Assembly (NCBI RefSeq): GCF_000215975.1
Contig: NC_015682.1
Location: 1 to 64,000, forward strand
Origin: Thermodesulfobacterium geofontis OPF15
Lineage (GTDB): Bacteria > Desulfobacterota > Thermodesulfobacteria > Thermodesulfobacteriales > Thermodesulfobacteriaceae
Reading direction: 5' to 3'
Length of the DNA stretch: 64,000 bases
Shown here: positions 48,518 through 52,871 of the stretch, in pieces
Position numbering within the stretch: position 1 is the stretch's first letter
How the letters are laid out: each line of letters opens with the position of its first letter
The notes under the pieces: model-generated
Told to the model about the DNA's origin: nothing
Databases searched by the model: none
What the model saw: only the letters and a program-made list of their open reading frames with translations
Position numbers and translations under genes: made by a program

Positions 48518-49997
48518 TTATTTACTTTTTATAGCTAATAAACCCAAAATAAAAAGAGTTATTATAATAAACCCTTTGGCTACAATTATATTCCAGGTAA
48601 TATTTTGAAAATGCTGAGGCAATTTCATTAAAATCCAAAAGTAAAAAAGAATTCCTATAAAAATTAAGGAAGTTCCATAAAAAACATAAACCAATAGTTT
48701 GGGAATTTTTAAAAAGGTATCTCTAATTAGTTCTTTATAAAAATTATCTACCCCAAATAACCAAACAAAAACTAATATTTCTATAAAGGCAAAAAGGATC
48801 AGAAATACTGCTCCTGCCCAAAAATCTAACTCATCAAGAAAACCAGGAACAAAAGCAGAAAGAAAGGCACCAAAGGCTACCATAACTATAGAAAGATTAA
48901 CAGCTAAATGGTGAGATATTTCTAATTCATCTTCAAAAAATGCAACTAATGGCTGAATAAGAGCTAAAGATGAAGTAAAAGCTGCAATAAAAAGCAAAAA
49001 AAACCATATAAAAGAAAAAATATACCCAAAGGGTAAAATAGCTAAAATAGCTGGCATACTCATAAAACCAAGTCTAAAGGTCCCTTCTTGAGCAAGTTGA
49101 GGAATAGAGGAGGCTCCAAAAATAGCAAAAGCTGCAGGAATAGCAATAGAAGCACCTATTCCTATTTCTGCCAATTCATTTAATAAAGCTGTATAAATCC
49201 CTACTTTCACTACATCTTCATTCTTTTTTACATAGCTTGCATAAGTAGCTATAGCACCCATAGCTAAGGAAAGGGTAAAAAATATCTGACCAGAAGCTTC
49301 TACCCAAACTTGAGGATCAGTCAATTTTGAAAAATCAGGTTTAAATATAAAATAAAGCCCCTCAACTCCTTTCCAATTATTTATAGAAAGTGAAACTATG
49401 GATAAGAAAATACCCATTAAAAAGAGTAAAGGCAATCCAATTTTAGCTGTAAATTCAATTCCCTTAACCACTCCCCTTTTTAAAACATACCAATTAAGCA
49501 CTAAAGTTATTAAAAGAAAAAAGATAGCTAAAAGAGAAGGTTGAGTATATTCTTTATAGAATTTTAAAAAGGGTATTAATGCAAGATTAGGATCAGTGTA
49601 TTCAATAGATTGGGGAAGTTTTTTAAAAAGGGATAAAAAGGCAAATCCGAGAGTCCAAGATTCTATATATATGTAATAACAAACGATAAGAAAGGGAATA
49701 GACACACCTAAACTACCTATTATTCTTGGTAAAGAATTTTGATTAAAAAACACCCCCATTATCCCAACCATAGAACCGTGTCCTTTTGAACCTGCATACC
49801 TTCCTATAACCCATTCTAAAATCATAAGCGGAAGTCCTAACAAAAAAAGGGAAATAAAATAGGGAACCATAAAGGCTCCCCCCTCCATATAATGCAACCT
49901 TAGAAGGAAATCTTAAGATATTTCCAAGCCCTATAGCATTACCTGCAGCTGCTAAAATAAGACCAATTTTAGTTGCCCAAGTTTCTCTTTTTCTCAT
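48518..49997 (-). pseudogene. Sodium-dependent transporter (NSS/SNF family), frameshifted at a G6 tract
   Basis: Sodium symporter for amino acids or similar solutes. The first part, from ATG 49997, reads [26 protein letters not shown] then ILRFPSK, the diagnostic NSS N-terminus with the sodium site, then loses frame at a run of six G (plus-strand C6 at 49878-49883). The second frame continues [31 protein letters not shown] and about ten further membrane segments to 48518. Removing one G joins the parts into an unbroken protein of about 492 residues, near the usual size. Promoter and the rest of the gene are intact. It could be a true pseudogene, a phase-variable gene, a slippage-decoded gene or a sequencing error. 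Confidence 0.85.
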
Positions 49998-50095: not shown

Positions 50096-50983
50096 ATGGA
50101 AAGCGTTGTAATTGATGGTGTAACCATATATCTTTCTCATCCTGATGAATTAAACATTCCTCTTTATCCAAGGGATGAAATCATTGAACAAATACTTGCT
50201 TGCTGGCTTGTTTTAGATGAAAAAGACCTTCCTCTTACACCTCGTCTTGTTGGTAAACCTGGAGTGGGTAAAACAACCCTTGCTTATGCAGCTGCAAAAA
50301 GGCTAAATAAAGAGGTCTATATTTTCCAAGCAACTGTTGATACAAGACCAGAAGACCTCATTATAACTCCTGTTATTTCAGAAGATAAAAAGATAAGGTA
50401 TGTAGCAAGCCCTATTGTTACTGCTATGATAAAAGGTGGAGTAGCTATTATTGATGAAGCAAATAGAATGAGCGAAAAATCTTGGGCTTCACTTGCTCCT
50501 CTTCTTGATGCTAGAAGATATGTAGAATCTATTATTGCAGGAATAAAAATAAAGGCTCATCCAGATTTTAGACTCTGTGTTACTATGAATGAAGATGCTT
50601 CAACTTTTGAATTACCTGAATATATTCACTCAAGACTGCAACCTCAAATTTTTATAGATTTTCCTTCCTATGAAGAAGAAAAGGCTATTCTAAAAACTAA
50701 TTTACCTTGGGCTGATGAAGGACTTCTTGATTATATAGTCAGGTTTTTACAAATGGCTCACGAATATGGAGAACTTTATAGTGTAAGAGATGGGGTAAAT
50801 ATAGGACGTTATGTCCTTAAAAAAATTAAATTCTCAAATAAATCTTCTAAGGATTTAACAAATCTTTTACCACTTCTTAAAGAGGCTATTTCAGTAATTC
50901 TTGGTCCTCAAGCTTTAATATATCTAAAAGAACTTTTGGAAAATAAGAAACCAACTAAGCCTCTGTTGCGTCCCTTAGATTAA
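50096..50983 (+). CDS. MoxR-family AAA+ ATPase
   Basis: The 295-residue protein has Walker A VGKPGVGKTTLAYAAAKRL near 58-76, Walker B GVAIIDEANRMSEKSWASLAPLLDARRYVE near 119-148 (with the Glu in DEAN), sensor-1-like MNEDASTFELPEYIHSRLQPQIFID near 172-196. MoxR ATPases usually help mature or remodel a partner, commonly with a VWA protein. Here no VWA gene is present; the next gene is a 612-residue protein 8 bases downstream. I could not find a convincing promoter in the AT-rich 98-base gap before it. Confidence 0.85.
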   Translation: MESVVIDGVTIYLSHPDELNIPLYPRDEIIEQILACWLVLDEKDLPLTPRLVGKPGVGKTTLAYAAAKRLNKEVYIFQATVDTRPEDLIITPVISEDKKIRYVASPIVTAMIKGGVAIIDEANRMSEKSWASLAPLLDARRYVESIIAGIKIKAHPDFRLCVTMNEDASTFELPEYIHSRLQPQIFIDFPSYEEEKAILKTNLPWADEGLLDYIVRFLQMAHEYGELYSVRDGVNIGRYVLKKIKFSNKSSKDLTNLLPLLKEAISVILGPQALIYLKELLENKKPTKPLLRPLD

Positions 50984-50990
50984 TCCAAAT

Positions 50991-52829
50991 ATGCTTAAAA
51001 TTGAAAAAAATTTTAAAAATAGAACCTCAATTTTATATTTTCTGCCTTTTTTCCCAAGTAATCTTGAAATTACTCAAAATATTATAAAACTTTTAGCTGA
51101 AGTTAAACCCTCTGCTATAGCAATTACACTTCCATTTTTTATAAAAGATAAATGGTTACTTGCTGTAAAAAGCCTTCCTACTATTTCTGTTCTTTCCCTT
51201 ACTTATAAAACAAAAGAAAACGAGTATCTAATTGTAGAACCTTTATGCCCTTTGGTTGAGGCAACAAGATATGCTATTTTTTCTGGTGTTCCTATTTTTT
51301 TTATAGATTTTCCAAAGGAAGCACAAGAAGAAGATTTAGCTAATTTTACTCCTCTACCTACCTATCTAATTAAAGATTTAGAATTTACTAAATATGTAGA
51401 TTTAACCCTTTCCTTTTTTGAAGAGCATTTAACAGAAAGAGAAAAATACATTGCAGAAAAAATTCTTGAAATTTCTCAAAAATACGACTCTATGGCTATT
51501 ATTTTACCTTTTTATCAAGTAAAGGGAGTAATAAGAGCTCTTGAGAGAGCTTCAGGTTTGCTTTATCTTCCTAAAAATATACCTAAGGAAATAGAAATTT
51601 ATACTTTAAATTTAAAAAGCTTAAGAGAAATTCTTTCTGAGCCAGGATATTTTCAATCTACCTATGAAAAAAATAGGAAAAATTTAATAGAAAATAAAAA
51701 TTTTGTTCTTGATAGAATTACTTTATATGAAGAAATTTTTGAAAAGGTAAGACAAAAATATTTTAAAGAAACAGGAACAGAACTCTCTCCTAAGGATCTC
51801 CAGGTTTTTGGACAATTTTTAAGAAATCTTCTTTTAATAAAAGGTCAGTATGTTCCTGATCTTTATACATTAATTTTAGCAGTAAGAGGAATAGGAGGAG
51901 ATGAATTTGCTTTCTGGTTTTGGGAGATTGCAACTTTCTATGAATTTCAAAAAGAAGAGCTTTCCCCCTTCCCTATTATAAATCTCTCTCCTGAAGATTT
52001 AAGACTTCCTTCTAAAAGACTAAGAATTTCAAGAAAAATAAAAAGCATAAGAAGTAGCTTAAATTTCTTACAAAAATTTACTACAAGAGAAGAAAGAAAA
52101 ATTTTTAAAAAAGGTTTTACTGGAAAGGTTATTTGTTCTTTTCCTCCAGAGGATGTAGTAGTTGAAACTTTTGGAAAAAAGGTGATGGAAAAAGGACTTA
52201 AGGTTATTACAGAAAATTTAAGAAAAATTGAACCTTTTACAACTTCATTAAAAGATGGTTTGGATATAAGGGAAACAATAAGAAAATGGTTTCTTGATGA
52301 GACTCCTTATGTAAAAGAAGAACCTCAAGCCCATGCAAAAGCAGGTTCAGTAGTAATAATTTTCGAAGAAGATCCTGACCCATTAACAGGAAAGGAAAGG
52401 TATCCTTGGAATTTTACCTGGCATGGAGAGCATCATCAAGAATCGGATATGGCCTTTTATTCTACAGATCCAAAAGAAAACGTAGTAGGTCCTGGTATTG
52501 CTAAAGCTAAATATGGGGGTTTCATGCTCACTTATCCTCCTATGAGAGTATATGATATATGGGAAGACCCCTATTTTGATATAGCAACTAATAAAGCTGA
52601 AAGACTTCTTTTAGCTGGTATAGATTATAGTTTAGAAAAATATATAATTTATGTAGCTAAAAAACCTCCCAGTAACCTTGCAAAAAAATTTGCCTCTCTT
52701 CAAGGTAAAAAAGTAATTTTTTTACCTATTGGTTCATTTTCTAAAAATTTTCTTGAAAAAATAAGGGTATTTCATGTTCTTGAAGGACATCATGTAAGAA
52801 AATATGCCCATAAATATATCAAAAAATAA
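50991..52829 (+). CDS. Unrecognised 612-residue protein paired with MoxR
   Basis: I do not recognise this protein. Its N-terminal 120 residues (LYFLPFFPSNLEITQNIIKL, AIAITLPFF) loosely recall the DUF5682-type segment of MoxR-associated proteins, but without its usual motif. Residues about 150-440 are charged and helical, with TFTTREERK and KRLRISRKIKSIR basic patches. The C-terminal third has a striking motif cluster: YPWNFTWHGEHHQESD near 480-495, FYSTDPKENVVGPGIAKAKYGGFM near 497-520, and YPPMRVYDIWEDPYFDIATN near 524-543, with closely spaced His and Glu residues that could bind a metal. It ends 49 bases before a sigma-54 activator gene. Context suggests a MoxR-remodelled partner. No signal peptide or membrane helix is evident. 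Confidence 0.5.
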   Translation: MLKIEKNFKNRTSILYFLPFFPSNLEITQNIIKLLAEVKPSAIAITLPFFIKDKWLLAVKSLPTISVLSLTYKTKENEYLIVEPLCPLVEATRYAIFSGVPIFFIDFPKEAQEEDLANFTPLPTYLIKDLEFTKYVDLTLSFFEEHLTEREKYIAEKILEISQKYDSMAIILPFYQVKGVIRALERASGLLYLPKNIPKEIEIYTLNLKSLREILSEPGYFQSTYEKNRKNLIENKNFVLDRITLYEEIFEKVRQKYFKETGTELSPKDLQVFGQFLRNLLLIKGQYVPDLYTLILAVRGIGGDEFAFWFWEIATFYEFQKEELSPFPIINLSPEDLRLPSKRLRISRKIKSIRSSLNFLQKFTTREERKIFKKGFTGKVICSFPPEDVVVETFGKKVMEKGLKVITENLRKIEPFTTSLKDGLDIRETIRKWFLDETPYVKEEPQAHAKAGSVVIIFEEDPDPLTGKERYPWNFTWHGEHHQESDMAFYSTDPKENVVGPGIAKAKYGGFMLTYPPMRVYDIWEDPYFDIATNKAERLLLAGIDYSLEKYIIYVAKKPPSNLAKKFASLQGKKVIFLPIGSFSKNFLEKIRVFHVLEGHHVRKYAHKYIKK

Positions 52830-52841
52830 ATAATCAAAAAT

Positions 52842-52871
52842 TTGACATATCTGTCAAAATTGTGATATAAT
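52842..52871 (+). promoter_or_regulatory. Promoter of the flagellar sigma-54 activator, with a palindromic operator over its -35
   Basis: TTGACA (52842-52847), 18 bases, TATAAT (52866-52871), with TGA before the TATAAT as an extended -10. The -35 is half of a perfect interrupted palindrome, TTGACATATCTGTCAA (52842-52857), so repressor or autoregulator binding is possible. The TATAAT ends 7 bases before ATG 52879, so the transcript should be leaderless. Confidence 0.7.

Follow-up and report, generated by a model that had tools for sequence, protein, structure and literature searches.

The window analysed here is the first 64 kb (64,000 nucleotides) of the complete 1.63 Mb genome of Thermodesulfobacterium geofontis OPF15, the near relatives of which are other Thermodesulfobacterium species. 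Two genes were predicted in it as a module of their own: a MoxR ATPase, followed after 8 bases by a 612-residue protein of no recognised family. Both open reading frames are present (Table 1). The tight spacing stands, the gap itself being 7 bases (50984-50990). The pair is also separate from its neighbours, as had been proposed, with a transporter gene on the opposite strand upstream and a promoter-like site 3' of the 612-aa gene. As this perfect sigma-70-like match precedes the downstream neighbour, it would start the next operon and thereby set it apart from the pair, which probably forms a transcription unit by itself. Downstream, a gene for a sigma-54 regulator is followed by genes for a TPR protein, a further regulator and a protein of the flagellar rod type. 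No Rfam match was obtained.

Table 1. Coordinates of the gene pair and its parts within the window
Feature	Position	Strand	Basis
MoxR-type AAA+ ATPase, 295 aa	50096..50983	+	ORF; Pfam and PDB sequence matches
612-aa partner: DUF5682/TraB-like N half and C half without a family	50991..52829	+	ORF; profile comparison
Partner residues 13-302, DUF5682-homologous region	51027..51896	+	Profile alignment; TraB/TIKI-like fold in AF2 model
Partner residues 373-612, where conservation in the family is highest	52107..52826	+	47 invariant positions; no family match
Sigma-70-like promoter, perfect TTGACA-18-TATAAT, TG before the -10 (extended)	52842..52871	+	Consensus match only

The upstream transporter, an SNF-type sodium symporter (48518-49997, minus strand), is interrupted by a frameshift close to a C run (about 49878-49883), which may reflect genuine gene decay or an error in sequencing; its intact counterpart is a single 497-aa open reading frame in relatives such as L003.

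The ATPase and the VWA cofactor

The ATPase matched the Pfam families AAA_5 (1.2e-19) and AAA_3 (2.7e-09), both above the cut-off, and NorQ, CbbQ and midasin chains in the PDB. Its motifs are a Walker A (GKPGVGKTT), a Walker B (IIDE), sensor-1 N165, SR180 (arginine-finger-like) and VRDG. The key residues are intact and are invariant across 17 relatives. The protein therefore has the full MoxR AAA+ core, in which Walker A/B, sensor and arginine-finger residues are combined with an AAA_3/AAA_5 match.

A BLASTP comparison with YehL aligned nothing beyond short segments. Profile scores rose from 80.8 for YehL to 97.8 for the CbbQ/GvpN/NorQ-like (CGN-like) set and 98.8 for the MRP-type set, the MRP and CGN-like labels having been assigned by us from sequence motifs. 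In the tree the MoxR clade of the ATPase is separate from YehL, with a weak deep branching order (59/8). On these sequence comparisons, the ATPase is assigned outside the YehL subfamily.

MoxR ATPases are thought to act through VWA cofactors. The cofactor is usually encoded near the ATPase (PMC3893208); none is encoded near this pair. The original prediction that a VWA partner is absent was extended to the complete 1.63 Mb genome, in which the Pfam models VWA_CoxE, VWA_2, VWA and VWA_3 gave no match; in a control, each of these models matched in 7 to 12 of 14 genomes. Profiles of the YehP-type VWA and YehQ-type SWIM proteins matched nothing near any copy of the pair. Because no VWA protein was detected in the complete genome, the MoxR ATPase here appears to have a non-VWA partner; a very divergent VWA protein may have been missed by the models.

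The two halves of the partner

Searched on its own, the 612-aa protein gave no Pfam match, no PDB match and only a sub-threshold NCBIfam TraB match. PF18934 (DUF5682) was matched by 15 of its 32 homologues (E ≤ 0.1; best 5.4e-10), and when 99 genomes were searched for DUF5682, only homologues of the partner gene were returned. With hhalign, the region aligned to seven YehM-type proteins was limited to residues 13-302 (96.5%, E 9.9e-10); with a larger alignment the value was 97.1%. Residues ~13-302 are thus identified, from profile comparison, as homologous to DUF5682 (E. coli YehM). The earlier description of the protein as being of no recognised family consequently fails for the N-terminal ~300 residues and holds for the C half, for which HMM-HMM comparison gave no match.

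The AF2 model of the partner is best in the DUF5682-homologous region and poor beyond residue 340. Foldseek returned a single significant match for this model, a TraB-family protein in a viral library (E 1.1e-4), and a PDB fold search with the full model gave no match at E ≤ 0.001. The N half is tentatively predicted to have a TraB/TIKI-type fold, which would relate it to the TraB/TIKI/EreA-ChaN superfamily.

The catalytic residues of the TIKI family are 2His/2Glu (PMC6254334). Among 26 relatives outside the genus, H22 is kept in 24, E46 in 25 and H176 in 25, and from their motif positions these residues may correspond to the TIKI/TraB catalytic set. Together with the DUF5682 homology and the TraB-family structural match, this retention would suit a TraB/TIKI-superfamily hydrolase that is switched on by MoxR, with the Thermodesulfobacterium copies as a degenerate side branch. 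Against this, all six aligned Thermodesulfobacterium sequences lack the His/Glu/His residues (position 22 is P/S, 46 is T/V and 176 is Q/F; in the window protein P22, T46 and Q176), while the MoxR ATPase and the C half are still strongly conserved: identity between the window protein and its outside-genus relatives is 53% in the C half and 25% in the N half. Two of the three residues are gone in a second lineage (L066) too, and of the 2His/2Glu residues the second Glu was not seen. The extra conserved C half is a further difference from the superfamily. We consider the hydrolase reading unlikely.

A DUF5682 protein on a Streptomyces plasmid (L088 5947-9720, 1257 aa) ends in an extra C-terminal stretch that resembles a VWA domain (VVDVSGSM motif); the protein reads like two yehLMPQ-type components fused in one.

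Invariant positions of the family alignment number 47 in residues 373-612 and 8 in residues 1-235. The predicted conservation of the C-terminal cluster HGEHHQESD was confirmed in 32 homologues, with full invariance at positions 479, 480, 484, 485 and 486 and near-invariance at 481 and 483, but not at 478 and 482. The C half was matched by none of the libraries or profiles compared, and a PDB sequence search with family profiles gave no convincing match. Several candidates were rejected for it. A hidden VWA domain was dismissed as far as the poor model allows (hhalign 0.1-0.9% to the YehP-type VWA), as were a counterpart of the YehM C-terminus (hhalign probability 0.1) and a SWIM or MoxR counterpart (no match in profile comparison). 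When the C half was modelled by itself with AF2 from 12 sequences, the pLDDT was 46.7; as no confident model was obtained, the C half could still be a known fold. The conserved residues E480, H481, E484, D486 and H595 would allow a metal to be held. It is tentatively suggested that the C half is an undescribed catalytic domain, perhaps dependent on a metal at these residues and activated by a dedicated MoxR ring, which would make the pair a VWA-independent MoxR class in at least two phyla.

The nearest described arrangement is E. coli yehL-yehM-yehP-yehQ, encoding MoxR, DUF5682, VWA and SWIM proteins, with relatives that include DUF5691/DUF4132; no functional study of it was found in the literature searched. 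A DUF5682 gene adjoins MoxR in E. coli, where yehL-yehM is already such a pair, and elsewhere. The order of a MoxR gene and a closely spaced DUF5682 gene, and the homologous N-terminal ~300 residues, are common to both systems and would be expected if the present pair were an ordinary yehLMPQ-type system minus its VWA and SWIM genes. That origin is improbable, since the MoxR ATPase is not YehL-like in BLASTP, profile score or clade and YehM contains nothing that corresponds to the C half.

Co-occurrence across genomes

Both genes are present in 62 of 395 genomes of the phylum, and an intact member of the pair was found alone in none of the 395. A first survey covered 198 genomes: the partner and an orthologous MoxR gene were found in exactly the same 36, and a divergent MoxR gene in one more. 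Many families are represented among the carriers. Counted by eye on the coordinates, ten of the 62 genomes have the two genes on separate contigs or over 5 kb from each other (G023, G005, G009, G042, G047, G078, G083, G153, G200 and G362); some of these ten are draft assemblies. A partner without an adjacent MoxR gene was rejected as a solo gene, as MoxR is encoded elsewhere in each such genome. The genes were thus separated in several lineages that nevertheless retain the two of them. In the 32 adjacent loci measured the order is MoxR then partner, often overlapping, and no recurrent third gene clearly belonging to the unit was seen across the loci. The same pair occurs outside the phylum on the Neochlamydia plasmid pS13. 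The genomes are not independent, and pairing statistics drawn from them are inflated by shared ancestry. The prediction of a two-gene module is strongly supported by this co-occurrence, the separated loci included; what co-occurrence shows is functional linkage, not contact.

Divergent MoxR genes in G131 and G354 each lie beside a divergent partner gene (L089 8052-11307 and L106 2-3151, respectively). These form a second subfamily, with partners of 782 and about 738 aa in which the C-terminal part has no clear match to the conserved C-domain. In G360 and G392 only decayed partner fragments were found (L104 3517-4316 and L105 4367-5332), and no MoxR gene, an apparent co-loss.

MoxR is a core of described conflict systems, the MoxR-vWA ternary systems (PMC7159879), and the pair is likewise MoxR-centred. 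A conflict or anti-phage module in this style might also account for the patchy distribution (C-domain match in 64 of 395 genomes), the plasmid copy in Neochlamydia and two copies on IMG/VR contigs, one of them beside a phage integrase. This role is nevertheless doubtful: matches in PADLOC reflect generic AAA+ similarity only, the pair is present as a single copy with synteny conserved within the genus, it has no VWA protein, no third component alongside and no repeated neighbours, and 50,697 phage records gave 0 matches. In the IMG/VR contig with the integrase (L102 368-4583) the pair is directly upstream of this phage-type gene, perhaps in the host flank of a provirus.

Proposed module and its significance

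The best explanation, to which we give a probability of roughly 0.6, is that the two genes form one module: a MoxR ring with an obligate partner, a DUF5682-like protein that carries a new C-terminal domain and takes the place of the VWA cofactor. RavA-ViaA, NorQ-NorD and CbbQ-CbbO are organized similarly, as a MoxR-type AAA+ ATPase with one dedicated partner encoded alongside; unlike theirs, the partner here has no recognisable VWA domain. The MoxR hexamer would bind the 612-aa protein and use ATP to remodel it, or to remodel a client protein through it, so that the partner would fill the adaptor or effector role that ViaA, NorD and CbbO have for other MoxR ATPases. We infer a division of labour between the halves of the partner: in Thermodesulfobacterium the N half, with its putative active-site residues gone, is probably an adaptor or scaffold, and the C half probably bears an essential activity or the contact with MoxR or the client.

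The MoxR-DUF5682 core is already known from yehLMPQ; what differs here is the MoxR subfamily, the lack of VWA and SWIM genes and the C half of the partner. This is a second context in which the DUF5682/YehM family is linked to MoxR, and it involves a different MoxR clade; the pair also provides a conserved C-terminal domain without a family for testing. A co-inherited MoxR pair in a small complete genome with no detectable VWA protein would be a minimal system in which to ask what function MoxR has on its own.
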